Assembly: GCA_023475265.1 (NCBI GenBank)
Contig: JAMCWE010000249.1
Coordinates: 1-38,802, forward strand
DNA from: Bacteroidota bacterium
Lineage (GTDB): Bacteria > Bacteroidota > Ignavibacteria > Ignavibacteriales > Ignavibacteriaceae
DNA length: 38,802 nucleotides
Direction: 5' to 3'
Within the stretch, counting starts at the first letter, position 1, and each line of letters starts with the position of its first letter. The notes under the pieces were generated by a model. The model saw only the letters and a program-made list of their open reading frames with translations. It searched no databases and was not told where the DNA came from. Made by a program: the position numbers and the translations under genes. This document shows, piece after piece, positions 272-17,664 of the stretch.

Positions 272-970
272 TTGGACTTAAAAATAAAAGACATAGTTGA
301 TCTTCTTCATATTTCTGAAAAGACAGTTTATAGATGGATCAAAGAGAAGAAGATTCCGTGCTACAAAATAAACCATCAATATAGGTTTAACCGCTCTGAA
401 ATTAACGAGTGGATTTTAAGCAGCAAAATTGAGCTTAATGCAAATGTCTTATCACTTTCTTCACAATCAACTTCACCAATATTATCTTCTCTTTTAGATT
501 CAGGAGGTATTTATAAAAATATTTCCGGGAAGTCAGTAAAAGAAATTTTAAAAAATGCAATTAGTATTATTTCAACTCCCACGTCTATTCCGAAAGAAGA
601 AATATTAGCTGCACTTCTAAGCCGCGAGGAAATGATGACCACAGCAATCGGCAGAGGGATTGCAATTCCTCATCCAAGGAATCCAATTATTACTGAAGCT
701 GGCGATTCAAATGTTTCAATTTGCTATCTGGAAAACTTAACAGATTTTAATGCATTAGATGGACAGCTTGTTCACACTTTGTTTATAGTTTTATCTAACA
801 GCCCGAAAAAACATTTGGAAACACTTTCAAAAATTTCTTCTTTGTGCCAAATAGATGAATTTATTGAAATGTTAAAGCAAAAAGAATCGAAGGAAAATAT
901 ATTGAAATTTATTCAAGCAAAAGAGATTGAATGGCAAGGCTTACCAATAGGCAGAAAGATAGGAAATTAA
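272..970 (+). CDS. Excisionase-type HTH fused to PTS EIIA (PtsN-like) domain regulator
   Basis: This 232-residue protein joins two domains. Residues 1-50 form an excisionase/MerR-like helix-turn-helix (KTVYRWIKEKKIPCYKI, then YRFNRSEINEWI). Residues about 85-232 form a PTS EIIA domain of the fructose/PtsN type, with the motif AIGRGIAIPHPR holding the phospho-acceptor His134. The start is TTG at 272; an in-frame ATG is lacking and the nearest upstream ATG is followed at once by a stop. The gene ends 5 bases before the hydrogenase-like operon, so it is probably co-transcribed with it. It is probably a DNA-binding regulator whose activity depends on EIIA phosphorylation. This is inferred: neither the phosphodonor nor the target is visible here. 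Confidence 0.85.
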   Translation: MDLKIKDIVDLLHISEKTVYRWIKEKKIPCYKINHQYRFNRSEINEWILSSKIELNANVLSLSSQSTSPILSSLLDSGGIYKNISGKSVKEILKNAISIISTPTSIPKEEILAALLSREEMMTTAIGRGIAIPHPRNPIITEAGDSNVSICYLENLTDFNALDGQLVHTLFIVLSNSPKKHLETLSKISSLCQIDEFIEMLKQKESKENILKFIQAKEIEWQGLPIGRKIGN

Positions 971-975
971 TTTAA

Positions 976-2958
976 ATGGATTATTTTCTTTTAGGATGTT
1001 TGCTTTTCGTTATCGGCGGATTAGTTGCAATTTTTTTTAAAGGAAATGTTAAAGGAATTTCATTTTTACTTTTTGAAGTTGCTGCACAATTTTTAATTCT
1101 TCCTACGGCATTTAATGCATTGATTGGTGGAATCGGTACGGAAAAATTAATTTCTTTCTCTGAACCAATTGGAACCGCTGCTTTTAGATTAGATGCGTTA
1201 TCAGCATTTTTTGTAATCATCATTTCAGTTGGATCATTGCTGGCTGCCGTTTATTCGATTGGATATTTGAAACATTACGATGAAAAAAAATATTCATTTT
1301 CATCCTTTTATTTTTTCTTCGGTGTGCTGGCAGCTTCCATGCTGCTTGTCGTAGTTGTACAAAATGCAATTTTATTTTTGATTGTTTGGGAGTTGATGTC
1401 AGTTTCATCTTTCTTCCTGGTCGGTTTTGAAAATGAAAAAGAAGAAGTAAGAAAAGCGGGAATATATTATTTAATCTCGATGCAGATTGGCGCTTCATTT
1501 TTGATTGCAGCATTTGCATGGTTGAGCAGCTTAACCGGAAGCTACGATTTTAATACTTATAAAAATATTTTGGGCACGCAAGGAACAGTTTCTATAATTT
1601 TATTTTTACTTTTTTTTATTGGCTTTGGAACAAAAGCCGGTTTCGTCCCATTCCACACGTGGCTGCCGCGGGCCCATCCTGCAGCGCCATCCGGCGTTTC
1701 TGCAATTATGTCCGGAGTTATGATTAAGACAGGCATTTACGGAATTTTAAGAATTATTTTGTTATCCGGAATTCCAGAAAAAGGTCTAGCATTTAGTGTT
1801 TTCATAATTGCATTGATCACCGCCATAATCGGAATCTTAAATGCAATTTCACAAAAAGATATTAAAAAGCTTCTTGCATATTCCAGTATTGAAAATATCG
1901 GTATCATCGGTATGGGCATTGGGCTTGGAATGTTAGGGCTCGCTTACAATATTCCAATAATTGTTTTGTTTGGATTTTTTGGCGCGCTGCTTCATACTTT
2001 AAATCATTTCTTATTCAAAAGCATATTGTTTTATGGTGCAGGAATTGTGTATCAAAAAACGGGGACAAGAAACATGGAAAAGCTTGGCGGACTTATAAAA
2101 TATTTGCCAATAACTTCAATAATTTTTCTTGCAGCAGTAATGGCAATTAGCGGTCTGCCTTTGCTAAATGGATTTATTAGTGAATTTGCAATTTATCTTG
2201 GTATGGCAAATAGCCTTTCTTATAACAATGCTTCATTAAATATTTTGATGATCATCGGATTTTCCGGTTTAGCTTTAGTTGGTGCAATGGCATTGATTGG
2301 ATTTACAAAATTATTTGGAGTTACTTTCCTTGGAACTCAACGTGAAAAATTTGAATATCAGCCTAAAGAAGCAAATGCTCTTTTTCTAATACCAATGATA
2401 TTTAACTTAGTTTTTGTTTTTATTATCGGACTTTTTCCGGCAACAATTATTCAGATAATTTCAGGAGTAATTAATCAATTTACTCAAACAAATTCAACGA
2501 CTGAATTCAACGCAATTCTGACCGTATATTATTCTTTATCAAAAGGGTTGCTCTTATTTATTGCGATTTTTCTTTTCTTTTTTCTTATTAGATATTTCCT
2601 ATTGCGGAAAAGGGAAATTAAAAATTTCAAAACTTGGAACTGCGGCTACCAATTAGAAAGCAGCAGACTTCAATATACCGGAAGTTCCTATTCTCTTCCT
2701 TTCCTTGAATTGGTTGCAGCTTTTGTACCACAAAAAACGACTGTCGAAACGGGAAAAGAAATTTTCCCGGTAGAGGTAAAGTTAAAAACTTCACAGCATG
2801 ATTTTGTGGAAAGAATTTTTATCCAACCAATGCTCAAATATGTCCGTTCGTTTTTAAATTTATTTGCTTGGGTACAAAGTGGAAGAATGCAGCAATACAT
2901 TCTTTACGGATTAATTTTTCTTGTTTTGATTTTGATTTGGATAATAGGAGTAAGATAA
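976..2958 (+). CDS. hyfB: Hydrogenase-4 subunit B-like antiporter subunit (NuoL/MrpA type) of an Ehr complex
   Basis: This 660-residue polytopic membrane protein is of the NuoL/M/N-MrpA-HyfB family, which forms proton- or sodium-translocating modules of complex I and group 4 hydrogenases. Visible markers are a membrane glutamate in IVWELMSVSSFFLV, the lysine-bearing signature FGTKAGFVPFHTWLP followed by RAHPAAPSGVSAIMSG, and the quinone-oxidoreductase helix pattern LLAYSSIENIGIIGMG. The C-terminal part (WNCGYQLESSRLQYTGSSYS) is typical of HyfB and not of NuoM. Its length matches HyfB. The stop codon directly abuts the start of the next gene at 2959, indicating a single operon. Ion specificity cannot be read from the sequence. 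Confidence 0.9.
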   Translation: MDYFLLGCLLFVIGGLVAIFFKGNVKGISFLLFEVAAQFLILPTAFNALIGGIGTEKLISFSEPIGTAAFRLDALSAFFVIIISVGSLLAAVYSIGYLKHYDEKKYSFSSFYFFFGVLAASMLLVVVVQNAILFLIVWELMSVSSFFLVGFENEKEEVRKAGIYYLISMQIGASFLIAAFAWLSSLTGSYDFNTYKNILGTQGTVSIILFLLFFIGFGTKAGFVPFHTWLPRAHPAAPSGVSAIMSGVMIKTGIYGILRIILLSGIPEKGLAFSVFIIALITAIIGILNAISQKDIKKLLAYSSIENIGIIGMGIGLGMLGLAYNIPIIVLFGFFGALLHTLNHFLFKSILFYGAGIVYQKTGTRNMEKLGGLIKYLPITSIIFLAAVMAISGLPLLNGFISEFAIYLGMANSLSYNNASLNILMIIGFSGLALVGAMALIGFTKLFGVTFLGTQREKFEYQPKEANALFLIPMIFNLVFVFIIGLFPATIIQIISGVINQFTQTNSTTEFNAILTVYYSLSKGLLLFIAIFLFFFLIRYFLLRKREIKNFKTWNCGYQLESSRLQYTGSSYSLPFLELVAAFVPQKTTVETGKEIFPVEVKLKTSQHDFVERIFIQPMLKYVRSFLNLFAWVQSGRMQQYILYGLIFLVLILIWIIGVR

Positions 2959-3879
2959 ATGCTGATTCTATTTCAAATATTTATTTTATTTTTTGCACCT
3001 TTTTTATTCTTAGGATTAATTAATCGTATCAAGGCTATTTGGGCTGGTAGAAAAGGATCGCCAATTCTTCAACCGCTGTACGACTTTCTAAAACTTTTAA
3101 AGAAGGATGAAGTAATAAGCAAAACCACTTCATTAGTTTTTCGAATTGCACCTACATTCAATATCGCCGCAGTAATCTTTGCTTTTTTGCTGATTCCTAT
3201 TCCTTCATTTGGATCAACAATTAGCTTTAACGGTGATTTTATTTTATTTGCATACATCCTTGGCCTCTCAAAATTTTTAATGGTGCTTGCTGCACTCGAT
3301 ACCGGAAGCAGCTTTGAAGGAATGGGTGCAAGCAGAGAAGTTACTTTTTCATCAATTGTTGAACCCGCATTTTTTATATTGATTGGAACGCTTGCATTGT
3401 TAACCGGACAAACTTCATTTGTTTCAATCTTCTCATTATTAAATCCCAGCGCTGGTTATACTGAATTGATCGAAATACTTTTTTCTGTTGCGCTGTTCAT
3501 AATGATTTTAACTGAAGGTTCACGCGTCCCGGTTGATGATCCGAATACACATTTGGAATTAACAATGATTCATGAAGTTATGGTGCTTGATTATTCCGGG
3601 CCTGATCTGGGATTTATTTTATATTCGGCTGGCATGAAGATGGTTCTGCTTTCAACTCTGGCAGCAAATTTAATTATACCGGAAAATTTATCACCGGCTT
3701 TAGCAATTATTTTTCTAGTAGTAATAATTTCTGTTACTTCAATTTTAATTGGAATAATTGAATCGTTAATGGCGCGGGCTCGGATGTCGCATGTTCCGCA
3801 ATTTATATTTTTGATGACTGCACTTTCATTTATTGCTTTTGCTGTAGTTATTTTTTTCATAAGAGGAGGAATTAGATGA
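2959..3879 (+). CDS. hyfC: Hydrogenase-4 subunit C-like membrane anchor (NuoH family)
   Basis: This 306-residue NuoH/HyfC-family integral membrane protein has about eight hydrophobic segments. Family marks are GRKGSPILQPLYDFLKLLKK near the N-terminus, the acidic loop LDTGSSFEGMGASREV, and EGSRVPVDDPNTHLELTMIH with its conserved acidic residues. In complex I and group 4 hydrogenases this subunit joins the hydrophilic arm to the pumping subunits and conveys redox energy to them. The ATG follows the hyfB stop with no gap, and the end overlaps the next start by four bases (ATGA), so translation is probably coupled. Confidence 0.9.
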   Translation: MLILFQIFILFFAPFLFLGLINRIKAIWAGRKGSPILQPLYDFLKLLKKDEVISKTTSLVFRIAPTFNIAAVIFAFLLIPIPSFGSTISFNGDFILFAYILGLSKFLMVLAALDTGSSFEGMGASREVTFSSIVEPAFFILIGTLALLTGQTSFVSIFSLLNPSAGYTELIEILFSVALFIMILTEGSRVPVDDPNTHLELTMIHEVMVLDYSGPDLGFILYSAGMKMVLLSTLAANLIIPENLSPALAIIFLVVIISVTSILIGIIESLMARARMSHVPQFIFLMTALSFIAFAVVIFFIRGGIR

Positions 3880-4511
3880 GCAACATATTAATTATTCTTC
3901 TCGGCACAAGCATCCTTTATGTTTTTGCAGCAAGCAGAATAGAATCATACGTCAAAACTTTAGCATTTCAAGGATTGATTTTATTCCTTCTCGTCATTCT
4001 TGATCTTAAAGAAATTAACTGGCTGAACATTGCTTTTCTTGCGGTCGAAACTTTAGCAATCAAAGGATTCATCATTCCATTCTTTTTGCTTAGAGTAATC
4101 CGGAAAAACGAAATCGGTAGAGAAGTTGAACCGTACATTTCACAATTCTATTCAATGTTGATTGCTAGCGGAATTTTTATTCTTGGTTTTGTGGTTGCTT
4201 ATTGGTCAGCTAAAATTGGATCCGGAGTAAAGCCGCTTTACTTCGGCGTTTCAATTGTCTTAATCGTTGCAAGTTTGTTTTTAATTGTAAACAGGAAAAG
4301 AATTATAACTCATATTTTATGTTATATGATTCTTGAAAACGGAATATTCCTTTTATCGCTTTCGGTGGCAAATGAAATGCCGCTGCTGGTCAATCTTGGT
4401 GTGCTGCTTGATCTGTTCGTCGGTATTTATCTGTTTGTAATTTTCTTCAATAAGATTCAGGAAATGTTTGATGGAAACCATATTGATATTCTCACTGAGT
4501 TGAAGGACTAA
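3876..4511 (+). CDS. hyfE: Hydrogenase-4 subunit E-like membrane protein (NuoK-related)
   Basis: This 211-residue membrane protein has the HyfE pattern: several hydrophobic helices, a C-terminal NuoK-like half (CYMILENGIFLLSLSV, with the membrane glutamate) and a final acidic segment. Position between hyfC and hyfF supports the call, since this order recurs in group 4 hydrogenase and Ehr clusters. An AGAGGAGG-like Shine-Dalgarno sequence lies inside the end of hyfC, and the ATG overlaps the hyfC stop. It is probably a small antiporter-associated subunit of the membrane arm. Confidence 0.82.
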   Translation: MSNILIILLGTSILYVFAASRIESYVKTLAFQGLILFLLVILDLKEINWLNIAFLAVETLAIKGFIIPFFLLRVIRKNEIGREVEPYISQFYSMLIASGIFILGFVVAYWSAKIGSGVKPLYFGVSIVLIVASLFLIVNRKRIITHILCYMILENGIFLLSLSVANEMPLLVNLGVLLDLFVGIYLFVIFFNKIQEMFDGNHIDILTELKD

Positions 4512-4513
4512 CG

Positions 4514-5944
4514 ATGGTAAGCATTTTATTATTTCTGCCGGTAGTATTTGGAATAATTGTACTTCTTTCGAACAATAAAATTGTCACAAGAATTTCGCTG
4601 CTATTTATTCCAATAATTTATATTACCGTTTCGGTGCTGGAATGGTTTGGTATAAATTGGATAATTCTTCCAGGCTGGCTGAATATTTATTTTAATTTTG
4701 ATTCGATAGGAATTCTATTTCTAACTGTTCTATCGATAGTATTTTTGGCTTCAGCAATTTACAGCATCTTTTATTTTGATGAACATAATTATTCCGCACA
4801 ACAAGAAACTGTTTACACTTCAACAATATTTCTATTTGCCGCTGCAATGGCTGGAGTTCTGCTTTCGACACATTTAGCTTTAACCTGGGTTTTTATTGAA
4901 GCAACAACTTTAACAAGTGCGCTGCTGATTTATTTTGAAAAGAAAAAATCTTCGCTCGAAGCAGCATGGAAATATATTTACATTTGTTCGATAGGTATTA
5001 CTTTAGCATTTGTTGGAATAATAATTCTTTCGATAGGAAGCAGGTCGTTTAATTCTCTTTTCTTTTCAGATTTATATCTTCACGCTGCGGAAATAAATCC
5101 TTTCTGGCTTCAAATAAGTTTTGCATTTATTCTTGTCGGATTCGGAACAAAGATCGGGATTGCACCAATTCATGCTTGGCTGCCGGATGCCCATTCAGAA
5201 GCGCCGTCACCGGTTTCTGCAATGCTATCCGGTACACTTCTTAATACGGCATTTTTAGGACTTATCCGGGTGCAGGGAGTTATGGTTCATGCACACAAAG
5301 AATCATTCTCAAATTTTTTGCTTCTAATTACCGGCTTTCTTTCTTTGCTTATCAGCGCAGTATTTATGCTGCAGATAAAAAATTACAAACGAATGCTCGC
5401 TTATTCTTCCATAGAAAATATGGGAATTCTTTTCATTGGCATTGCACTTGGCAAGCCCGGAATTTTTGCGGCGATGATTTTACTTGTGGCTCATTCACTT
5501 TCAAAAACTTCTTTGTTCTTAACTTCCGGAAATATTCTTCATCTTTTCAAAAGCAAAAAAATAAATAATGTTCAAGGACTTTTGAAGAAAGATTCTATAA
5601 CAGGATGGATTTGGATAATTTCTTTGTTATCAATTTCCGGACTGCCGCCTTTCCCGGCATTCATAGCAAAGTTTTTAATTGTGAAAGCATTCTTCGCTGC
5701 CGGCTTAGCCTGGTTAGCCGTTCCATTTTTCATTTTGCTTGCGGTTATTGTTTATGGAATGGGAAGTGCTTTTTTCAAAATGTCATTTGGCGAAATTGAA
5801 ATTGAAGACAGAAATAAATTAAGATTGAATTACTCTGCTTATGCCGGGCAAATTATTTTACTTTTTTTGTTGCTAATTATTGGAACAAATATTCCGTACG
5901 CCGTATTAAATCTTTTAAAGAACGCAGCTGGCTTTTTATATTAG
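4514..5944 (+). CDS. hyfF: Hydrogenase-4 subunit F-like antiporter subunit (NuoM/N type)
   Basis: This 476-residue polytopic protein is the second antiporter-like subunit of the cluster. The key motifs are LTWVFIEATTLTSALLIYFE with its membrane glutamate, FGTKIGIAPIHAWLPDAHSE with the functional lysine, PSPVSAMLSG, and YSSIENMGILFIGIALG. It is shorter than HyfB and has no C-terminal extension, as expected for HyfF. Two such subunits imply more than one ion pathway per complex. The start lies two bases after the hyfE stop. Confidence 0.9.
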   Translation: MVSILLFLPVVFGIIVLLSNNKIVTRISLLFIPIIYITVSVLEWFGINWIILPGWLNIYFNFDSIGILFLTVLSIVFLASAIYSIFYFDEHNYSAQQETVYTSTIFLFAAAMAGVLLSTHLALTWVFIEATTLTSALLIYFEKKKSSLEAAWKYIYICSIGITLAFVGIIILSIGSRSFNSLFFSDLYLHAAEINPFWLQISFAFILVGFGTKIGIAPIHAWLPDAHSEAPSPVSAMLSGTLLNTAFLGLIRVQGVMVHAHKESFSNFLLLITGFLSLLISAVFMLQIKNYKRMLAYSSIENMGILFIGIALGKPGIFAAMILLVAHSLSKTSLFLTSGNILHLFKSKKINNVQGLLKKDSITGWIWIISLLSISGLPPFPAFIAKFLIVKAFFAAGLAWLAVPFFILLAVIVYGMGSAFFKMSFGEIEIEDRNKLRLNYSAYAGQIILLFLLLIIGTNIPYAVLNLLKNAAGFLY

Positions 5945-5957
5945 AAGGAGTTTGTAA

Positions 5958-7445
5958 TTGATTTGGACTGAAATAAAAAACCTTCAATCTGTTTCTCTTA
6001 AGGAAATTCCGAATTTGGAATTCCATAAGCTGAGGGAACAGATTGTTGAAATGATTTCAAAAGGATGCCGGTTAATTCAATTCTTTGGTGAAAAAATTAA
6101 TTCCGGCGTAATTCTTTATGTCGTTCTTGCGGATGACGAACAATCAAAACTCTTTATCGCATCATCAAATTTTAATGACGGTGATTCTTTCGATTCCATA
6201 ACTCCAGAATTCAAATCCTTCCATCTTTTTGAAAGAGAATTTTATGAGCAGTTTGGAATTAAGCCTCAAGGCCATCCATGGTTGAAGCCGGTTCGAAAAG
6301 GAATTGCCGGAATTTCTAAAGAAGAAATTCCATATGAATTTTTTAAAATGATCGGAGAAGAAGTTCACGAAGTTGGCGTCGGTCCAATTCATGCCGGAAT
6401 AATTGAACCTGGACATTTCAGGTTTTCTTGTCACGGCGAACAAATTCATCATCTTGAAATTGAACTTGGATTTCAACACCGAGGAATTGAAGAATTATTT
6501 ATTCGTAATAAAAATAATCCGGTTTATCTTTTAAAGCTTTCCGAATCAATTGCCGGTGATACGGTAGTCGGTCATGCCGGGACATTTGCCCGAGCTATTG
6601 AATCACTAAGTGAAAATAATATTTCCCGCCGGGCAATGGTAATAAGAACTATCGCTCTTGAACTCGAAAGGATCGGAATTCATCTTGGCGATCTTTCTGC
6701 ACTATCCGGAGATGTTGCTTATCTAACCGGTAATGCTGCATTTGGTGCGTTAAGAACAAAAGTAATAAATACAACTCTTGCAATTTGCGGCAGCCGATTC
6801 GGACACGGAATGATTGCTGTTGGCGGTGTGAATTATGATATTAGTTCTGAATTGAAAGAGAAAATTTTAGACACAATAAATAAGTTAGAAGAAGATGTTG
6901 AAATTGCTGCCGAGGTTTTATTTTCATCGGCATCTGTTCTTGCAAGGTTTGAAAAGACCGGAATAATTACAAATGAAATTGCTAAAGAAATTGGAATGGT
7001 TGGGCCGGCAGCGCGCGCTAGCGGTGTTGCAATTGATATTAGATCGGATCATCCATTCGGCGGTTTCTCACTGTTCCCGGTTCATAAATTAACTTTAAAA
7101 TCCGGCGATGTATTTGCACGAGCTTATATTCGTTATATCGAAATAACTCAATCAATTAAAATAATTAAAGAACAGCTGGAAACTTTTAGCGAAGGTGAAT
7201 TGAAAAAAACTTCTTCGGAATTAAAGCCTAATCATTTTGTAATTTCGTTGGCTGAAGGCTGGCGCGGAGAAATTTCTCATACAGCAATTACTGATGAAAA
7301 CGGACGACTTAGAAAATATAAAATAAAAGATCCGTCATTTAATAATTGGCTTGCTGTTGCTTTGTCGGTGAAGAATAATGGTGTATCTGATTTTCCGTTG
7401 TGCAATAAGAGCTTTAATCTTTCGTATAGCGGTTTCGATCTTTAA
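5958..7445 (+). CDS. hyfG: Hydrogenase-4 large-subunit-like protein (NuoC-NuoD fusion) lacking the NiFe ligands
   Basis: This 495-residue protein combines a NuoC-like N-terminal domain (to about residue 120, containing HLFEREFYEQFGI and GHPWLKPVRK) with a NuoD/NiFe large-subunit domain. The sites that hold nickel in hydrogenases are altered. The first CxxC site reads ESIAGDTVVGH (residues 196-206), with Ala199 and Thr202 replacing the cysteines. The C-terminal DPCxxC site reads DPSFNNW, with Ser460 and Asn463. The fold is retained but NiFe catalysis is not expected. This fits energy-converting hydrogenase-related (Ehr) complexes. The start is TTG at 5958, supported by AGAAGGAG eight bases upstream. 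The electron acceptor is unknown. Confidence 0.87.
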   Translation: MIWTEIKNLQSVSLKEIPNLEFHKLREQIVEMISKGCRLIQFFGEKINSGVILYVVLADDEQSKLFIASSNFNDGDSFDSITPEFKSFHLFEREFYEQFGIKPQGHPWLKPVRKGIAGISKEEIPYEFFKMIGEEVHEVGVGPIHAGIIEPGHFRFSCHGEQIHHLEIELGFQHRGIEELFIRNKNNPVYLLKLSESIAGDTVVGHAGTFARAIESLSENNISRRAMVIRTIALELERIGIHLGDLSALSGDVAYLTGNAAFGALRTKVINTTLAICGSRFGHGMIAVGGVNYDISSELKEKILDTINKLEEDVEIAAEVLFSSASVLARFEKTGIITNEIAKEIGMVGPAARASGVAIDIRSDHPFGGFSLFPVHKLTLKSGDVFARAYIRYIEITQSIKIIKEQLETFSEGELKKTSSELKPNHFVISLAEGWRGEISHTAITDENGRLRKYKIKDPSFNNWLAVALSVKNNGVSDFPLCNKSFNLSYSGFDL

Positions 7446-7462
7446 TAATTTTGGAATATGGA

Positions 7463-8221
7463 ATGTTAGATTTATTTAAATTAAGAATCAGACATGGGAA
7501 ACAGGCGATCCCAAACATTCGTAAAGCAGAAGTTCTTGAAACTTTTAAAGGGTTTCCAATTATTGATGAAAGCAAGTGTGCAGATAAATGCAAAGATTGT
7601 AAGGACGTTTGTCCTACCGAAGCGATTGAAGTTAATCCGTTAAGACTAGATTTAGGCAAATGTATTTTTTGCGGAGAATGTGAAAAAGTTTGTTCCAGCG
7701 GAGCGATTAAATTTACAAATCAATATCAGCTTGGAAGTACAAATCGTAATTCTTTAATAATTTCTTCCGGAAAAACATTTGAGCAATTTGAAGAAGAAGC
7801 GGTCGATGCAAAAAAAGAAATTCATAAATATTTTGGCAGGTCGTTGAAACTGCGTCAGGTTTCCGCAGGCGGATGCAACGGTTGTGAATTGGAATTAGCT
7901 GCAACGACAAATGTTAATTTCGATATGGGAAGATTTGGAATTGACTTCGTTGCTTCACCAAGACATGCTGATGGAATTGTTATTACCGGACCAATATCAG
8001 CTAACATGGCTCCCGCTTTGAAGGATGCATATGAAAGTATAAGCGATCCAAAGATTGTAATCGCTGTCGGCGTCTGTTCAATAAGCGGCGGGTTATTTGC
8101 AAACTCAAATCATGTTAATAGAAATTTCTTTGATGAAATTCCGGTTGATCTTTTTGTACCAGGCTGCCCGCCGCATCCGCTTACATTCATTCATGCGCTG
8201 CTTGATTATATAGGGAAATAA
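7463..8221 (+). CDS. hyfI: Ferredoxin-NuoB fusion: hydrogenase-4 small subunit-like (HyfH-HyfI fusion)
   Basis: This 252-residue protein has an N-terminal two-cluster ferredoxin domain (Cys39, 43, 46, 50 and Cys67, 70, 73, 77; pattern CxxCxxCxxxC in the second) and a NuoB/HyfI domain from about residue 125 with GGCNGCE (Cys138, Cys141), VGVC (Cys205) and PGCPPHP (Cys235). It can therefore carry three [4Fe-4S] clusters and pass electrons to the large subunit. In most group 4 complexes the ferredoxin-like subunit is a separate gene; here it is fused. I chose ATG 7463, with GGAA about six bases upstream, over an in-frame TTG at 7451 that has no ribosome site. This is the last gene of the operon. 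Confidence 0.86.
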   Translation: MLDLFKLRIRHGKQAIPNIRKAEVLETFKGFPIIDESKCADKCKDCKDVCPTEAIEVNPLRLDLGKCIFCGECEKVCSSGAIKFTNQYQLGSTNRNSLIISSGKTFEQFEEEAVDAKKEIHKYFGRSLKLRQVSAGGCNGCELELAATTNVNFDMGRFGIDFVASPRHADGIVITGPISANMAPALKDAYESISDPKIVIAVGVCSISGGLFANSNHVNRNFFDEIPVDLFVPGCPPHPLTFIHALLDYIGK

Positions 8222-8621
8222 TTTCTACTGACAAAAAATTAATAAAGCAGCAAATCAATTTTTTAGCATGACTTTGATTATTAAATTTTATCCTCTTCAA
8301 ATTTCAAGAGCTCTTAAAATACAGTTTTTGGATCAATACATTAATTAAAAACTTTCCCAAGTTTTTGATCAAAGGTTTGAAATTTTATTCCTATTCTAAT
8401 CCTTAGAAAAAAATTTTCATATTTGGGAAACCAAATGTAGAATTAAGATTAAAATTCAAATTTTTAGTTGCATTGATGGAAAAGTAAATCGATAAAAAAC
8501 AATTCTAATGGCACAATTTATGGTTTATATTCTTTTGTAAAATTGGCAGATTAAACAATTTATGATCAATTAATTTATTTCTCTTAAAAAAAGAGACAAA
8601 TTAAAGTGGAGACAAAATAAA
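8222..8621. other. 400-base intergenic region between the Ehr operon and the malic enzyme gene
   Basis: No gene is visible. Candidate regulatory marks are a CTCTT (8293-8297), AAGAG (8306-8310), CTCTT (8311-8315) series that can pair in two mutually exclusive ways, and a 10-bp palindrome TTTGATCAAA at 8364-8373. No clear T-rich intrinsic terminator follows the first operon. The length suggests that the promoter of the malic enzyme operon lies here. A ribosome site (GTGGAGAC) lies just before 8622. Confidence 0.35.
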
Positions 8622-10889
8622 ATGAAAATAAGCAAAGAAGAAGCACTCGATTATCATAGTCAGGGTAGACGTGGCAAAATAGAAGTAATTCCAACTAAGC
8701 CATGTTTAACTTCAAGAGATTTATCTCTGGCTTATACTCCTGGCGTAGCTGAGCCATGCCGTGCAATTGAAAAGAATGATGACGAAGTTTATCATTATAC
8801 AGCAAAAGGAAATTTAGTCGCTGTTATTTCAAACGGAACTGCAGTGTTGGGTTTGGGAGATATTGGTCCGCATGCAGGCAAACCTGTTATGGAAGGCAAA
8901 GGGGTTCTATTCAAAAGATTTGCAGACATCGATGTTTTTGATATTGAACTTAAAAGTAAAGATCCTAAGGAAATTATTAGAGCCGTTCAAATGCTTGAAC
9001 CAACTTTCGGCGGAATCAATTTAGAAGATATAAAAGCTCCTGAGTGCTTTGAAATTGAAGAAACTCTTAAAGCGACAATGAACATTCCTGTTTTTCATGA
9101 CGACCAGCATGGAACTGCAATAATTTCTTGCGCTGCTTTAATCAATGCTGCTGAAGTTGCCGGAAAACTTTTACCTGATCTTAAGATAGTTGTAAATGGA
9201 GCCGGCGCTGCGGCAATTTCTTGCTGCAAACTTTATATAAGAGCCGGTGCAAAAAGAGAAAATATTTTAATGTTTGATTCAAAGGGATGCATAACAAAAG
9301 ATAGAAAAGATCTGAACAAATATAAAATGGAATTTGCAACTGAAAAATTCCATGGCTCGCTTGCAGATGCTTTTAAAGGCGCCGATGTATTTGTTGGACT
9401 TTCAGTCGGCGGTGTGGTTTCTAAGGAAATGATAAAAGTTATGGCTTCTAATCCGATTGTCTTTGCAATGGCTAATCCAGATCCGGAAATTACTTATGAC
9501 GATGCTGTATCTGTAAGAGATGATTTAATTATGGCAACAGGAAGAAGTGATTATCCGAATCAAGTAAATAATGTTCTTGGCTTTCCATTCATCTTCCGCG
9601 GCGCTTTGGATGTAAGAGCAACAGCAATAAATGAAGAAATGAAAATGGCTGCTGTTGAAGCATTGGCTTGTTTGGCAAAGAAAAAAGTTCCTGAAATGGT
9701 TATGAATGCATACGGCGGAGAAAGTTTTGAGTTTGGTAAAAATTATATAATTCCAAAACCGTTTGATCCGCGAGTCCTTTGGCATGTTGCGCCTGCGGTA
9801 GCCAAAGCTGCAATCGAAACTGGTGTCGCTAGAATTAAAATAGAAAACTGGATTGCTTACGAAGAAGAATTGAAAGAAAGACTTGGACTTTCTAAAGAAA
9901 TAATGCGGGTTATGATTCATAAAGCTCAAAAAAGTCCAAGACGGGTTGTTTATCCTGAAGGCGAAGAAGAAAAAATAATTCGCGCGGCTCATGTTGCTTT
10001 TACCGATAACATTGCAAAACCGATTTTACTAGGCAATGAAAAGAAGATAAAAGATACGATTAAAAATCTTAATTATGATGAAAATGAATTTGAAATTTTT
10101 GATCCGGAAACTTGCCCTAAAGTAGAAAGTTATGCACTGGCATTCTTTCACAAAAGAGAACGAAAAGGTTCAACTTTAAATGAAGCACGAGAACTTTTAA
10201 AAAGTTCAATCTATTACGGTTCAATGATGGTTGATCAGGGAGATGCAGATGCATTAATAAGCGGCTTAACAACTCATTATCCAAATACAATAAAGCCAGC
10301 GCTTCAATGCGTCGGGGTTAAAGACGGATTTAAAGTTGTGTCCGGACTTTATATTGTTATAACCAAGAAAGATGTTTTCTTCTTTTCTGATACAACGGTA
10401 AATGTAAATCCAACTGCGGAAGAACTTGCAGAAATAGCAATTTCTACCGCAGACGCTGCTCAAGCATTTGATGTTGAGCCTAAAGTTGCAATGCTTTCAT
10501 TCAGCAATTTTGGTAGTACAAAATATCCTGAAGCAATTAAGGTAAGTCAAGCAGTAAAAATAGTTAAAAAGCTTCGGCCAAATTTGGTTATTGATGGTGA
10601 AATGCAAGCTGATACTGCGGTTGTACCGGAGATTTTGCAAGATGTATTTCCATTTTCCGATCTTAAAACAAGAGCTAATGTATTAATTTTCCCGGATCTT
10701 AATTCCGGAAACATTGCTTATAAACTTATGGCAAGAATCGGCCAGGCAACTGTAATTGGCCCAATATTGATGGGTATGAAAAAATCTGTTCATGTTCTTC
10801 AAAGAGGTGCAACAGTTGAAGATATAATTAATATGACGGCAGTTGCCGTTGTTGGCGCAAATAACAGACTCAAACAAACAGCAATATAA
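8622..10889 (+). CDS. maeB: NADP-dependent malic enzyme with phosphotransacetylase-like C-terminal domain (MaeB type)
   Basis: This 755-residue protein oxidatively decarboxylates malate to pyruvate, usually with NADP+. Residues 1 to about 425 are the malic enzyme module: [28 protein letters not shown] with the catalytic lysine region, HDDQHGTAI with the metal and substrate site, and the nucleotide fold [12 protein letters not shown]. The remainder resembles phosphotransacetylase ([15 protein letters not shown], then [13 protein letters not shown]). In MaeB enzymes that tail is generally regulatory, responding to acetyl-CoA, rather than a working transacetylase. Full length matches the family. 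It is followed two bases later by the Nfn genes, which suggests that its NADPH feeds that transhydrogenase (inferred). Confidence 0.95.
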
Positions 10890-10891
10890 AT

Positions 10892-11761
10892 ATGTACAAA
10901 ATACTTTACGCAGAATTCATCGCACCAAATATTAAAAAGTTCAGGATTGAAGTTCCTAAGATTGCTAAAAAAAGACAAGCAGGGCAATTTGTAATTATTA
11001 GAGTTGATGAGAATGGAGAACGAGTTCCCCTAACAATTTCCGATTCAAATATTGAGGAAGGTTCAATTACCATCATAGTTCAAGGTGTAGGAAAAACAAC
11101 AATGCAGTTAAATGAATTGGAAACCGGTGATTTTATTTTAGATGTTGTCGGGCCTTTAGGTAAACCATCTCATATAGAAAATTTTGGAGTAGCCGTCAGC
11201 ATAGGTGGAGGAGTAGGAACAGCAATAGCTTATCCCACCGCGGTTGCTTTGAAGAAAGCCGGAAACTATACGATCTCAATTATTGGCGGCAGAACGAAAG
11301 ACTTTGTTATTCTTGAAGATGAAATGAAGGAAGTCTGCGATGAAGTTTTTGTTACAACTGACGATGGAAGTTATGGTTATCATGGATTTGTTACTCAAAA
11401 ATTAAAAGAGCTGATTGATGCAAAAAGACGAATTGACTTTGTGCTTGCTATCGGTCCAATTCCAATGATGAAAGCTGTTGCTGAAGTTACAAGGAAACTA
11501 AAAATTAAAACTGTTGTCAGCTTAAACCCGATAATGGTTGACGGAACCGGAATGTGCGGCGGCTGTCGCGCAACAGTTGATAACAAAACAGTATTTGTGT
11601 GCGTCGATGGTCCTGAATTCGATGCACATAAAGTTGATTTTGAATTACTTGAAAGAAGAAACCGAACATACAAAAAAGATGAAGAGCAAGCGCTAAGTTT
11701 TTATACATGCCATTCAAATGAAACGATTTTAAATTCGGTTGAAAGCGAAATAAAAAAATAA
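10892..11761 (+). CDS. nfnA: NfnA-like ferredoxin/NAD(P)H transhydrogenase small subunit
   Basis: This 289-residue flavoprotein is of the ferredoxin-NADP+ reductase/PyrK/SudB type. An FAD-binding barrel (RVPLTISD near residue 45) is followed by a nucleotide-binding domain (SIGGGVGTAIAYP; AIGPIPMMKAV). A [2Fe-2S] site lies near the C-terminus in VDGTGMCGGC and FVCVDGP, giving the unusual one-Asp three-Cys set Asp217, Cys222, Cys225 and Cys237 that is typical of NfnA. With the next gene it forms the two-subunit NADH-dependent ferredoxin:NADP+ oxidoreductase, which can bifurcate electrons from NADPH to NAD+ and ferredoxin. SudB of sulfide dehydrogenase is a close relative and cannot be excluded. 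Confidence 0.87.
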   Translation: MYKILYAEFIAPNIKKFRIEVPKIAKKRQAGQFVIIRVDENGERVPLTISDSNIEEGSITIIVQGVGKTTMQLNELETGDFILDVVGPLGKPSHIENFGVAVSIGGGVGTAIAYPTAVALKKAGNYTISIIGGRTKDFVILEDEMKEVCDEVFVTTDDGSYGYHGFVTQKLKELIDAKRRIDFVLAIGPIPMMKAVAEVTRKLKIKTVVSLNPIMVDGTGMCGGCRATVDNKTVFVCVDGPEFDAHKVDFELLERRNRTYKKDEEQALSFYTCHSNETILNSVESEIKK

Positions 11762-11803
11762 TCAGCGGCAGACTATTAATTTTAAATTATTCGGAGAGTT
11801 GAT

Positions 11804-13225
11804 TTGGAGAAATTGTCAAATAAAGAGAGGATGAAAATTGTTCGTCAGTCAATGCCTGAGCAGGATAGCAAAGTAAGACGAAATAATTTTGAAGAAGTAA
11901 ATCTTGGCTTTACAGAGGAACTGGCAAAATTAGAAGCGCTCAGATGCATTCAGTGTCCAAAGCCAACTTGTGTAGAAGGTTGTCCTGTTGGAGTAAAGAT
12001 TAAAGATTTTATTGCTCTTGTTGCTGAAGGAGATTATTTAGTTGCTGCTGCAAAAATAAAAGAAGATAATATGCTGCCAGCAGTTTGCGGCAGAGTTTGC
12101 CCGCAGGAAGAACAATGTGAAGTGAAATGTGTTGTCGGCAAAAAAAATGGACCCGTTGCAATTGGACGATTAGAAAGATTTGTAGCTGATTTTGAAAGAG
12201 AACATGTAGGAATTAGAACACCTGACTTAAAACCAAGAACCGGAAAGAAAGTTGCTATCGTTGGAAGCGGTCCTGCAGGATTGAGTTGCGCAGGGGATTT
12301 AATTCAAATGGGACATGAAGTAACAGTATTTGAAGCTCTTCACGACCTTGGTGGAGTTTTGATTTATGGAATTCCAGAATTTCGTCTTCCAAAAGAAATT
12401 GTAAAAGCTGAAGTTGAATCATTAAAAAAATTAGGAGTGGATTTTCAAACTAATGCCGTAATCGGATTAACTGATACAGTCGATGAACTTTTACAAAATG
12501 GTTACGATGCTGTTTTCATTGCTGTTGGCGCGGGGCTTCCTTACTTCCTAAATATTCCTGGTGAAAATTTGAATGGAGTTTATTCAGCAAATGAATTTCT
12601 TACCAGAGTTAATTTGATGAAAGCATATAAGTTTCCATCGTTTGATACTCCGGTATTTCATTGTAAAGATAAAAATGTTGCTGTTTTCGGCGGCGGGAAT
12701 ACAGCGATGGATGCGGTGCGGACATCAAAAAGATTAGGTGCAAAGAATGCTTATATAATTTACCGTCGTTCAGATTTAGAAATGCCGGCAAGAAAAGAAG
12801 AAATTCACCATGCAAAGGAAGAAGGAATTGAATTTATTTATCTTTCAAACCCTGTTGAATTTGTTGGAGATAAAAATGGCTGGTTAACTGGAGTTAAAGT
12901 TCAAAAAATGGAATTAGGTGAGCCTGATTCTTCCGGTCGGCGTAAACCAATTCCAATTTCCGGTTCTGATTATATAATTGATATTGATATGGCTGTTATT
13001 GCAATTGGAAATGGTTCTAATCCGATAATTCAAAAAACAACTCCTGATCTTCAATATACAAAATGGGGGAACATAGTTGTTGATGAATCAACAATGAAGA
13101 CAACTAAAAAAGGAGTATTTGCCGGAGGTGATATTGTTACCGGCGGTGCGACTGTTATTTTAGCGATGGGTGCCGGTAGAAAAGCTGCCGCAGCTATAAA
13201 TGAATTTCTAAGGGGTTCAAAATAA
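11804..13225 (+). CDS. nfnB: NfnB-like ferredoxin/NAD(P)H transhydrogenase large subunit (GltD family)
   Basis: This 473-residue protein is of the glutamate synthase small-subunit family. N-terminal cysteines bind two [4Fe-4S] clusters (Cys48, 51, 56, 60 and Cys95, 99, 105, 109). An FAD fold follows (AIVGSGPAGLSCAG), then an NAD(P)H fold (AVFGGGNTAMDAVR), and a C-terminal FAD contact (GVFAGGDIVTGGATVILAMG). No glutamate synthase large subunit is adjacent; the partner is the NfnA-like gene just upstream, which decides the call. The start is TTG at 11804, supported by CGGAG about eight bases upstream. Automatic pipelines may label it GltA or GltD; the operon argues for a transhydrogenase. Confidence 0.87.
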   Translation: MEKLSNKERMKIVRQSMPEQDSKVRRNNFEEVNLGFTEELAKLEALRCIQCPKPTCVEGCPVGVKIKDFIALVAEGDYLVAAAKIKEDNMLPAVCGRVCPQEEQCEVKCVVGKKNGPVAIGRLERFVADFEREHVGIRTPDLKPRTGKKVAIVGSGPAGLSCAGDLIQMGHEVTVFEALHDLGGVLIYGIPEFRLPKEIVKAEVESLKKLGVDFQTNAVIGLTDTVDELLQNGYDAVFIAVGAGLPYFLNIPGENLNGVYSANEFLTRVNLMKAYKFPSFDTPVFHCKDKNVAVFGGGNTAMDAVRTSKRLGAKNAYIIYRRSDLEMPARKEEIHHAKEEGIEFIYLSNPVEFVGDKNGWLTGVKVQKMELGEPDSSGRRKPIPISGSDYIIDIDMAVIAIGNGSNPIIQKTTPDLQYTKWGNIVVDESTMKTTKKGVFAGGDIVTGGATVILAMGAGRKAAAAINEFLRGSK

Positions 13226-14729: not shown

Positions 14730-15830
14730 ATGATTTTCGCAAATCTAATTAGAATCCGAAACGGAAATTTATTTTCAAGACAGGTTTCCTTAATTGTATT
14801 ATTCCTTTCTTTAATATTTATCATTACGCTGAATATTAATTGCAGCTCAAAAAAGGATAACGGAACTACTAAAAATTTAACCGAGCTAGATACAGTTGCT
14901 GTAAAAGTATCTAAAGCAAAGATTAATAATATCCGGCTTATAAAAACTTTTACTGGTACTCTTGAAGGAGAAGAGCAAGCAAATATTGTTTCAAAAATTC
15001 CCGAAAGAATTACGGAAATAAAAGTTCAGGTTGGCGATAATATAAAAGCTGGGCAGCTGCTTATAGTATTAGATAAGTCTGGTGCATCATCTCAATTTTA
15101 TCAAGCCCAAGCCGGTTACTTAAATGCCAAAAAAGATCTTGAGAGAATGGAAGCGCTTTTTAAAGAAGGCGCAATCTCACAGCAATTATTTGATGGAACT
15201 AAAACAGCATTCGAAGTTGCCAGAGCAAATTTCGAAGCGGCTAAAAATACTGTTGAACTTACTTCGCCAATCGGCGGAATAGTAACAGCTATAAATAATA
15301 ATGTTGGTGAATTAGCTAGCCCGGGTTTACCATTAATAATAATTGCAAATATTCAGAGGATGAAAATTGTATTTGATGTTGGTGAAGAAGATATACCGAA
15401 CTTGGCCATCGGTCAAAATTCAGAAGTATATTCTGAATTAAAACCTGAACTAATCCAAAAAGGGAAAATATCTCAAATTTCAAAATCAGCCGATATTCAA
15501 TCGCGCAGCTTTGAATTAAAAACTCTCTTTACAAATACTTCAGATAAATGGTTTAAGCCGGGTATGTTTTGCCGTGTAAATGTTGAGTTAAAAAATAAAA
15601 AGAATATTCTTACTATACCAAACGCTGCGGTAACAGTTATTCAAAATACTAAAGGTGTATTTGTAATAAATGGTCATAAGGCTTCATTCCGAAAAATTGA
15701 AACCGGAATTACTGACGGTATAGACACGGAAATATTATCAGGATTGAAAGGCGGCGATGTTGTTGTTACGCTTGGAACAAATGATTTGAAAGAAGGAAGC
15801 CCGGTTTATATTTCTGAACAAACAAATTAG
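14730..15830 (+). CDS. RND efflux periplasmic adaptor (membrane fusion protein)
   Basis: This 366-residue AcrA/MexA-type adaptor has an N-terminal hydrophobic segment ending in a possible lipidation cysteine (Cys38, in LNINCSS; the lipobox is not canonical). The lipoyl halves (VSKIPERITEIKVQVGDNIK; TSPIGGIVTAINNNVGE) flank a coiled-coil hairpin, followed by the beta-barrel (KPGMFCRVNVEL) and membrane-proximal domains. The gene is complete, but its last 67 codons (from 15627) lie inside a 1019-bp tandem duplication, so the same tail recurs at the end of the next reading frame. GAGGG precedes the start. Confidence 0.93.
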   Translation: MIFANLIRIRNGNLFSRQVSLIVLFLSLIFIITLNINCSSKKDNGTTKNLTELDTVAVKVSKAKINNIRLIKTFTGTLEGEEQANIVSKIPERITEIKVQVGDNIKAGQLLIVLDKSGASSQFYQAQAGYLNAKKDLERMEALFKEGAISQQLFDGTKTAFEVARANFEAAKNTVELTSPIGGIVTAINNNVGELASPGLPLIIIANIQRMKIVFDVGEEDIPNLAIGQNSEVYSELKPELIQKGKISQISKSADIQSRSFELKTLFTNTSDKWFKPGMFCRVNVELKNKKNILTIPNAAVTVIQNTKGVFVINGHKASFRKIETGITDGIDTEILSGLKGGDVVVTLGTNDLKEGSPVYISEQTN

Positions 15831-16645
15831 TTATACAATGTTTCTGATAAATTTTTCAATTAGAAAAAAATGACAGGTAGAATATGAAATTAGCTGATGT
15901 ATCTATCGAACGACCTGTGTTTGCAACTATGATGATATTAGCACTTATAGTGCTTGGACTGTTTTCTTATTTGAAATTAAATGTCGATCTATTTCCTAAT
16001 GTTGATATTCCTTATGTAATTGTTACCACTGTTTTACCAGGTGCAGGTCCAGAGCAAATAGAAACAGATGTTACTAAAAAATTAGAGGATGCAGTTAATC
16101 CTATTGAAGGAGTTGACTGGATTCAATCTTATTCACGCGAAGGTGTTTCAATTCTTGTAGTAGCTTTTAAACTTGAAATAGACGGAAAAATTGCAGCGCA
16201 AGATGTACGAGAAAAGTTATCTGCAATCAGAGCAGATTTACCAACAGATATTGAAGATCCAATAATTCAAAGATATGATCCGGCTAGTTTTCCAATCATG
16301 TCATTAACTGTTTCAGGTCAAAGATCGGAAAAAGAAATAACTGAATACACGAAGAATGTTGTTAAGAAACGATTGGAAAATATTCCCGGTGTTGGCTCTG
16401 TAGATTTAGTTGGCGGTGCAGAAAGAGAAATTGAAATTGCTATCGATCCATCAAGATTGAAAGCATATAATTTATCTATTCAGGAAGTAATACAAAGTAT
16501 TGGTGCATCCAATGTAGAAGTACCCGGTGGAAATTTAATAAAGGGACCAAGACAAGTAATTCTCCGTACAATGGGAAAATTTAAAAACATTGTGGATTTC
16601 AATAAAGTAATAGTTGCAAATCCAAAAGGGAAAGTTGTTTACTTA
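15627..16645 (+). repeat. Tandem direct repeat, copy 1 (1019 bp)
   Basis: Copy 1 starts at codon 300 of the MFP gene (GCGGTAACAG) and runs to codon 254 of the first RND reading frame (GTTTACTTA). The next base begins copy 2 directly. By eye the copies appear identical throughout. There is no shared microhomology at the edges: the base before copy 1 is T and the last base of the unit is A; the first base of the unit is G and the base after copy 2 is T. Confidence 0.95.
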
Positions 16646-16849
16646 GCGGTAACAGTTATTCAAAATACTAAAGGTGTATTTGTAATAAATGGTCATAAGG
16701 CTTCATTCCGAAAAATTGAAACCGGAATTACTGACGGTATAGACACGGAAATATTATCAGGATTGAAAGGCGGCGATGTTGTTGTTACGCTTGGAACAAA
16801 TGATTTGAAAGAAGGAAGCCCGGTTTATATTTCTGAACAAACAAATTAG
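15884..16849 (+). CDS. Chimeric reading frame: RND pump N-terminus fused to MFP C-terminus
   Basis: This 321-residue frame is a by-product of the tandem duplication. Residues 1-254 are identical to the first 254 residues of the RND pump that follows (first membrane helix and first porter subdomains). Residues 255-321 are identical to the last 67 residues of the MFP. The junction at 16645/16646 falls exactly on a codon boundary in both parents, so the frame stays open. The upstream sequence, including the ribosome site, is the same as that of the intact pump gene. It lacks the funnel, the TM4 aspartates and most helices, so it cannot pump. It is probably a non-functional remnant, or an assembly artefact. 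Confidence 0.85.
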   Translation: MKLADVSIERPVFATMMILALIVLGLFSYLKLNVDLFPNVDIPYVIVTTVLPGAGPEQIETDVTKKLEDAVNPIEGVDWIQSYSREGVSILVVAFKLEIDGKIAAQDVREKLSAIRADLPTDIEDPIIQRYDPASFPIMSLTVSGQRSEKEITEYTKNVVKKRLENIPGVGSVDLVGGAEREIEIAIDPSRLKAYNLSIQEVIQSIGASNVEVPGGNLIKGPRQVILRTMGKFKNIVDFNKVIVANPKGKVVYLAVTVIQNTKGVFVINGHKASFRKIETGITDGIDTEILSGLKGGDVVVTLGTNDLKEGSPVYISEQTN

Positions 16850-17664
16850 TTATACAATGTTTCTGATAAATTTTTCAATTAGAAAAAAATGACAGGTAGA
16901 ATATGAAATTAGCTGATGTATCTATCGAACGACCTGTGTTTGCAACTATGATGATATTAGCACTTATAGTGCTTGGACTGTTTTCTTATTTGAAATTAAA
17001 TGTCGATCTATTTCCTAATGTTGATATTCCTTATGTAATTGTTACCACTGTTTTACCAGGTGCAGGTCCAGAGCAAATAGAAACAGATGTTACTAAAAAA
17101 TTAGAGGATGCAGTTAATCCTATTGAAGGAGTTGACTGGATTCAATCTTATTCACGCGAAGGTGTTTCAATTCTTGTAGTAGCTTTTAAACTTGAAATAG
17201 ACGGAAAAATTGCAGCGCAAGATGTACGAGAAAAGTTATCTGCAATCAGAGCAGATTTACCAACAGATATTGAAGATCCAATAATTCAAAGATATGATCC
17301 GGCTAGTTTTCCAATCATGTCATTAACTGTTTCAGGTCAAAGATCGGAAAAAGAAATAACTGAATACACGAAGAATGTTGTTAAGAAACGATTGGAAAAT
17401 ATTCCCGGTGTTGGCTCTGTAGATTTAGTTGGCGGTGCAGAAAGAGAAATTGAAATTGCTATCGATCCATCAAGATTGAAAGCATATAATTTATCTATTC
17501 AGGAAGTAATACAAAGTATTGGTGCATCCAATGTAGAAGTACCCGGTGGAAATTTAATAAAGGGACCAAGACAAGTAATTCTCCGTACAATGGGAAAATT
17601 TAAAAACATTGTGGATTTCAATAAAGTAATAGTTGCAAATCCAAAAGGGAAAGTTGTTTACTTA
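16646..17664 (+). repeat. Tandem direct repeat, copy 2 (1019 bp)
   Basis: This is the second, head-to-tail copy of the unit at 15627-16645, offset by exactly 1019 bases. It ends at codon 254 of the intact RND gene, where the sequence changes to TCCGATATTGC and continues as normal pump sequence. It repeats the MFP 3' end, the 53-base MFP-RND spacer and the pump 5' end. Confidence 0.95.

Follow-up and report, generated by a model that had tools for sequence, protein, structure and literature searches.

The founding papers on energy-converting hydrogenase-related (Ehr) complexes are reportedly those of Coppi in 2005 and Marreiros in 2013. Ehr complexes that lack the CxxC motifs and are of unknown function are already in print (PMC6349859, PMC4378227, PMC7304191 and PMC10284858, in the sections available), and a Nitrospira group 4 complex without a CxxC motif, not termed Ehr, appears in the available part of PMC12542776. 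According to the accessible text of PMC7894505 the role of Ehr was never investigated in Geobacter sulfurreducens, and that of PMC8691401 reports a coculture with higher Ehr abundance. The Pyrococcus Mbx/MBS complex (6u8y) is hydrogenase-related and is grouped with Ehr in the available portion of PMC6349859.

Within a window of 38,802 nucleotides of Bacteroidota DNA (contig C22 of a 4.77 Mb genome, G000, with a completeness rating of 96.8%), we found an operon spanning positions 272–8221, with intergenic gaps of at most 13 bp, that encodes a complex of this kind (Table 1). It shares with described Ehr complexes–Geobacter Ehr GSU0739-45 and those of PMC6349859, PMC4378227 and PMC10284858, as far as the available text of these papers goes–the loss of both CxxC motifs and the same subunit types. 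Compared to E. coli hydrogenase-4 and formate hydrogenlyase (FHL; HyfB-I, HycC-G), it has equivalents of HyfB, C, E, F, G, H and I, HycE/HyfG form its sister clade, and FHL HycE (7z0s_E) has the nearest solved fold, but it lacks the NiFe ligands and the C-terminal tail, there is no HyfA or HyfD in the operon, and the HyfH and HyfI equivalents are fused. With complex I (NuoD/NuoB/NuoH/NuoL-N), Ehr has the fold and pump residues in common, whereas it is without the quinone-headgroup residues and its proximal cluster is of the hydrogenase CxxC type; among the 10 proteins annotated at positions 272–13225 we found no NADH module next to the core genes. HycE, MbhL and many complex I chains match the large subunit better than does the Mbx/MBS chain 6u8y_L (1e-38).

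Table 1. Features of the Ehr operon, with positions in the window.
Feature	Position	Strand	Evidence
HTH_17 + PTS_EIIA_2 (PtsN-like) protein, 232 aa	272..970	+	Pfam PF12728, PF00359
Phospho-acceptor-type His134 of the HTH-EIIA protein, conserved	codon 671-673	+	H134 in 42/42 EIIA sequences
HyfB-like antiporter-type membrane subunit, 660 aa	976..2958	+	NCBIfam/Pfam; alignment to E. coli NuoL/M/N, HyfB/D/F
HyfC/NuoH-like membrane subunit, 306 aa	2959..3879	+	PF00146; alignment
HyfE-like membrane subunit, 211 aa	3876..4511	+	NF008556, under that model's curated cut-off
HyfF-like antiporter-type subunit, 476 aa	4514..5944	+	NCBIfam/Pfam; alignment
Ehr large subunit (NuoC-like + NuoD/HycE-like), 495 aa, TTG start	5958..7445	+	Domain matches, alignment, tree, structure model
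A199-G-D-T202 in large subunit, replacing first CxxC	6552..6563	+	Alignment; G200, D201 invariant in 89/89
DPSFNNW of large subunit, general fold motif away from ligand site	7329..7349	+	Alignment
N483-K-S-F-N-L-S489-Y-S-G492-F-D-L495, at place of hydrogenase SxDPCxxCxxR	7404..7442	+	S489, G492 are the lost-ligand positions
Ehr small subunit, 256 aa: HyfH/NuoI-like 2x[4Fe-4S] domain fused to HyfI-like domain (C142, C145, C209, C239)	7451..8221	+	Pfam, alignment

The operon has the content of an Ehr locus, with antiporter-like, NuoH-like and HyfE-like membrane subunits as well as a large and a small subunit. Names such as HyfB should be read as "like" only, because most NCBIfam matches of the operon proteins fall under the models' own cut-offs; the HyfE-like protein falls in a cluster to which 63 loci, the window counted in, contribute one sequence each. 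For comparison we assembled 89 Ehr large subunits–the best 80 of at least 585 loci, 8 more from a genome search, and the window itself–of which 88 are complete at the C-terminus, together with 12 hydrogenases and 9 NuoD proteins. In 13 of the 80 loci (L030, L040, L052, L059, L062, L065, L066, L068, L071, L081, L087, L089 and L097), and also in L143, a second HyfB-type antiporter gene lies ahead of the remaining operon; the extra gene would make a longer variant of the pump.

The first-pass annotation of this DNA had claimed that all four nickel ligands of the large subunit are replaced. That conclusion stands, with different residues for the second pair: where [NiFe] group 4 enzymes have four cysteine ligands (present at all four positions in 12/12 hydrogenases), the window protein has A199, T202, S489 and G492. 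The first motif had been placed correctly, as ESIAGDTVVGH begins at residue 196 and the first CxxC of HycE falls on its A199 and T202. The second pair had been taken to be S460 and N463 in DPSFNNW (residues 458–464), but this segment aligns with AATYANW of HycE and not with the second CxxC. In its columns, position 460 is T or S in all 12 hydrogenases and S in all 9 grouped NuoD proteins, and position 463 is N in the former and N or H in the latter. In HMMER alignments with the solved HycE, the true second pair lies 29 residues further downstream, where DPCYSC of HycE falls on NLSYSG (487–492), and a 112-row alignment agrees with this placement. We also looked for four cysteines displaced to nearby positions, an outcome that the annotation had named as contrary to its claim, and found that the window protein has only C37, C158, C277 and C482. 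C482 occurs in 83 of 88 relatives and C491 in 69 of 88, at which position the window has Ser; we found no class-level difference between the window protein and other Ehr.

The same replacement is seen throughout the class. At position 199 the 89 Ehr rows have Ala (67), Cys (14), Ser (7) or Val (1), and at position 202 Thr (66), Ser (21) or Ala (2), while all 88 rows complete at the C-terminus have Ser at 489 and Gly at 492. The second cysteine of the first motif is thus missing in 89/89 rows, the window included, and both cysteines of the second motif in 88/88. To judge from these alignments, the loss of cysteine across Ehr is not chance. Two or more cysteines are found within residues 478–495 in 66 of the 89 Ehr rows, but two within residues 193–208 in none. 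The 14 large subunits that keep C199 are L023–L029, L032, L036, L054, L056, L057, L067 and L078, and 12 of them also have C491. The Arg of the RxCGxC motif, present in 12/12 hydrogenases and 9/9 NuoD, is mostly replaced at Ehr position 197 by Thr (41) or Ser (38). No Ehr row has any sequence past alignment position 495, whereas 6 of the 12 hydrogenases have 32–42 residues more; the other six hydrogenases and all 9 NuoD also end there. Specific proteases cleave hydrogenase catalytic subunits (PMC7654741, available text), and the tail-less C-terminus of Ehr is consistent with there being no need for nickel-dependent processing, although it is not proof.

Conservation of the replaced site is strict. 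G200 and D201 are invariant in 89/89 Ehr rows, and N483, K484, S489, Y490, G492 and D494 in 88/88, compared to a mean column identity of 49% in a 48-row Ehr alignment. From position 136 on, 13 residues reach a conservation of 95% or more in Ehr and occur in none of the 12 hydrogenases or 9 NuoD (H137, A146, I149, F156, Q173, D201, D458, N483, K484, L488, S489, G492 and L495), and seven of these sit within the two old ligand loops. Because the replacement is both shared and strict, it argues for a re-tasked site and against decay.

Assignment of the complex to Ehr, as first proposed, is supported by motif, operon content and phylogeny. In the alignments the large subunit is group 4-like and is without both the N- and C-terminal CxxC ligands. 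In a tree of 73 rows (52 Ehr, 12 hydrogenases and 9 NuoD, rooted on NuoD and with the motif columns retained), the Ehr rows form one clade with support of 100/100, and HycE/HyfG is its sister (99/96). A single loss of the nickel site in a Hyf-like ancestor is therefore the simplest account. The Ehr clade includes Melainabacteria sequences and those of Geomonas (Geobacteraceae; L055 and L066), which represent Geobacteraceae Ehr in our comparison in place of GSU0739-45. Record titles indicate that Ehr complexes are spread over many phyla; in a sample of the window's phylum, 12 of 198 genomes had matches at 1e-30, comprising by motif 10 Ehr and two NuoD-like proteins (L016 and L017). A deep-branching Ehr subtype, L014 and L015 (L139 and L140), carries ISGDS and PVINKSFNLSYSGNDR; its small subunits are likewise fused, each in a single frame (L139, 294 aa; L140, 292 aa).

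The electron-transfer and pumping parts of the complex have been kept. All 12 cluster cysteines of the small subunit are present in the window, forming ligands for three [4Fe-4S] clusters, and each is retained in 74–100% of 76 rows, the least retained being C43, C47 and C50 of the first cluster (about 75% of rows). By alignment, the proximal-cluster ligands have the CxxC spacing of hydrogenases, unlike the double Cys of NuoB. The HyfB-like subunit retains E139, K220, K251 and E403, and the HyfF-like subunit retains E129, K213 and K386, with N244 the same as in E. coli HyfF. An AlphaFold model of the large subunit (mean pLDDT 88.9) has FHL HycE as its closest fold (Z 43.8, 475 residues aligned, 2.6 A), and complex I 49-kDa chains rank next (Z 39 to 41). 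The loop at residues 142–155 has pLDDT below 50 in the isolated chain, yet most of its residues are invariant, as might be expected if the loop depends on the partner subunit.

We also searched for the NiFe maturation protein HypD. It had no match in the window genome and was not found in 23 of 50 other Ehr-carrying genomes, including 4 of the 8 rated at least 90% complete. HypD is present in the remaining 27 of 50, among them G078, whose Ehr is among the closest relatives, and it is also missing from 10 of 14 control genomes. The survey shows only that Ehr can exist without the NiFe cofactor pathway. The near-invariance of the replaced site, the retention of Fe-S ligands and pump residues, and the genomes in which HypD was not found all support the earlier suggestion that the complex has been maintained for some other reaction.

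The annotation had also considered a quinone-linked reaction, and this is weakened by our results. His38 and Tyr87 of Thermus Nqo4 (numbers counted from our alignment) are what we take to be the quinone-headgroup residues of complex I. The corresponding positions have H and Y in 9/9 grouped NuoD, but I149 and G200 in 89/89 Ehr, the window included; of two ungrouped NuoD-like rows, L017 has H and Y, and L018 has T and V. A UbiE/MenG match at 1e-20 was found in 36 of 49 carrier genomes (above its cut-off in 31), so in many of them the partner may be a quinone. It was missing in 13, eight of which belong to the Melainabacteria set of 14 genomes (11 named by title and three by nearness: L027, L054 and L067), although UbiE/MenG is a loose marker that matches 12 of 14 controls, and some of the carrier gaps may reflect incomplete drafts. 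The UbiA family was uninformative as a quinone marker, matching 47/49 carriers and 14/14 controls. A HycE query at 1e-25 has a single match in each of the L023 and L027 genomes, the Ehr itself. Taken together, the headgroup positions and marker gaps make a quinone less likely as acceptor. For the donor, the cluster domain and gene content suggest ferredoxin. A 2-oxoacid:ferredoxin oxidoreductase domain occurs in 49/49 carriers, which is compatible with ferredoxin, but the domain is common (11 of 14 control genomes).

The HTH-EIIA gene ends only 5 bp ahead of the HyfB-like gene, the first of the pump genes in the window, and a similar arrangement is frequent elsewhere. Using a profile of the full HTH-EIIA protein, we examined the 60 loci in which 900 bp or more are visible ahead of the first membrane gene. 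An EIIA gene lies directly upstream on the same strand in 35 of them, with gaps of 11–386 bp, and between HyfB and HyfC in one more (L069). Outside the 60, L098, a relative of L069 in the tree, has EIIA at the same inner place, and L060 has it immediately after the small subunit. The two Geomonas loci differ, as the operon of Geomonas limicola (L066) includes the EIIA gene and that of Geomonas edaphica (L055) lacks it. No EIIA was found in the other 24 loci, comprising 11 of the Melainabacteria set (11/11 of those with visible upstream DNA), five of one Bacteroidota group (L079, L087, L089, L091 and L094) and eight others, so it is not obligatory. Among seven further loci, EIIA is upstream in L135, L136 and L143 and missing in L139, L141 and L142, while L140, which ends just ahead of the first gene, has a SulP transporter with an EIIA domain between the large and small subunits. 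By comparison, none of 20 control loci from carrier genomes (10 hydrogenase and 10 NuoD loci, 13–20 kb) has an EIIA match anywhere; the difference between 36/60 and 0/20 has P = 5e-7 by Fisher's test if loci are taken as independent despite their kinship. Mapped onto the tree, the EIIA label changes 7 times over 42 rows (L009, L012, L013 and L014 unlabeled).

The frequency of this neighbor hints that Ehr may be controlled by the cell's phosphotransferase system (PTS), and the window genome has enzyme I and three EIIA_2 genes. Transcription control and direct binding are both possible roles for EIIA. In E. coli, unphosphorylated PtsN inhibits the K+/H+ antiporter YcgO (PMC11808508, available text), which could serve as a model for EIIA action on Ehr, not as a test of it. 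A limited literature search, by title or start of abstract, found no report tying EIIA or PtsN to an Ehr-type complex.

At the sequence level, then, the window complex has no nickel ligands. It does have three sets of [4Fe-4S] ligands and the antiporter-type pump residues, its replacement site is conserved, and a PTS EIIA protein that retains its histidine is linked to it. The reading that we prefer, and to which we give a probability of about one half, is that it is a ferredoxin-linked Ehr ion pump under PTS control that reduces an acceptor, probably not a quinone. The common ancestor of Ehr would have been a Hyf-type (hydrogenase-4) complex that lost its NiFe site and gained a new conserved pocket in its place. 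Electrons from reduced ferredoxin, or another low-potential donor, would enter at the fused ferredoxin domain and reach the former nickel cavity by way of the proximal cluster. A small acceptor would be reduced there, causing a movement that may drive the transport of H+ or Na+ by HyfC, HyfB and HyfF. Running backwards, the complex would use ion influx to drive electrons uphill onto ferredoxin. The HTH-EIIA protein may couple expression, activity or both to the PEP/phosphotransferase state. A bolder and more doubtful version would have the ex-nickel cavity as a wholly new site for a non-quinone acceptor, formed by the invariant Gly-Asp plus Thr/Ser opposite Asn-Lys-Ser...Ser-Tyr-x-Gly, with unphosphorylated EIIA switching the pump by binding, by analogy to PtsN on a cation antiporter.

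A possible, if tentative, alternative is that the complex is a ferredoxin:quinone oxidoreductase, resembling complex I without the NADH module, in which different residues hold a quinone within the same cavity. The fold shared with NuoD would fit, as would the UbiE match and two more 49-kDa-type genes in the window organism and the UbiE/MenG matches in most carriers; the Ile and Gly at the headgroup positions of all 89 Ehr speak against it, as do the carriers without UbiE, even if some of these are draft gaps. That a separate formate dehydrogenase feeds the complex seems unlikely. This has been put forward for the Ehr of Riflemargulisbacteria and Saganbacteria (PMC6349859, available text), Ehr subunits of G. 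sulfurreducens were more abundant on formate than with hydrogen (PMC7894505, available text), and the sister of Ehr is the formate-hydrogenlyase-type HycE/HyfG, but neither a formate dehydrogenase nor a HyfA-like gene is among the 10 annotated proteins at 272–13225, and none of the six Pfam-annotated clusters of recurrent neighbors is a formate dehydrogenase.

It is quite unlikely that redox chemistry has been lost altogether and that the complex now works simply as an EIIA-regulated cation/proton antiporter. The retained antiporter-type residues and the inhibition of YcgO by PtsN (PMC11808508, as above) would suit such a protein, but a redox arm that had died would have no use for cluster ligands or a distinct pocket, and both are conserved over many phyla. 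We regard a cryptic [NiFe] hydrogenase with other ligands as very improbable. Some relatives do have C199 and C491 together (12/89) and most have C482, and H2 production from formate was suggested in the available text of PMC7894505; against this, none of the 89 Ehr has two cysteines in the first motif, and HypD was not found in the window genome or in 23 of 50 other carriers. The H2-production suggestion conflicts with the missing ligands, provided that the Geobacter protein shares their loss.

The window complex thus belongs to a known class, and the core of the first description of it was right once the second motif is corrected. What our analysis contributes is an exact signature, tests of NiFe maturation and of the quinone site, and the association with EIIA. 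The signature sets Ehr apart from both hydrogenases and complex I; one proteomics paper, in its available text, still discusses Ehr as possible hydrogen makers (PMC7894505). The EIIA link offers a handle on when cells use Ehr.

Genes for SulP anion transporters adjoin or interrupt some Ehr operons. They lie ahead of EIIA in L031, L033 and L136, inside the operon in L140 (6939–9140, where the protein also has STAS and EIIA domains) and behind the small-subunit gene in L142, and occur also in L049, on the opposite strand, and L040, as a weak match. In total they occur in 4 of 80 loci and 3 of 7 further ones, and in neither the window nor any of the 20 control loci. The association is a lead only; if unphosphorylated EIIA does gate a pump with a wholly new acceptor site, it would hint at a small anion (for example, bicarbonate) as substrate or counter-ion.

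Other neighbors were considered and set aside. The malic enzyme–phosphotransacetylase fusion and the NfnA/NfnB-like pair downstream of the operon (8622–13225) are only local: these genes were not found beside the operon in L135, whose large subunit is 68% identical, in L136 or in the 80 loci, the sole exception being a 36% malic-enzyme match in L091. We found no terminator between positions 8221 and 8622, and read-through into the malic enzyme gene is therefore possible. Among clusters of neighbors that recur in at least three loci, beyond the operon genes and EIIA, several look by position like antisense ORFs of GC-rich loci, and two include window genes (an efflux fusion protein and a MurB-like protein, identified by eye). 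Six were assigned by Pfam: porin, SulP transporter, sensor kinase, integrase, glycosyltransferase and helicase.

Elsewhere in the window, an exact direct repeat of 300 nt occurs at positions 15627–15926 and 16646–16945, 1019 bp apart. The ORF at 15884–16849 arises from this repeat, with a start like that of the RND-type pump gene at 16903 and an end like that of the fusion-protein gene at 14730–15830; the repeat is either a tandem duplication or an assembly artefact. At the edge of the window, a frame at 37760–38728 resembles, by eye, a group II intron reverse transcriptase.
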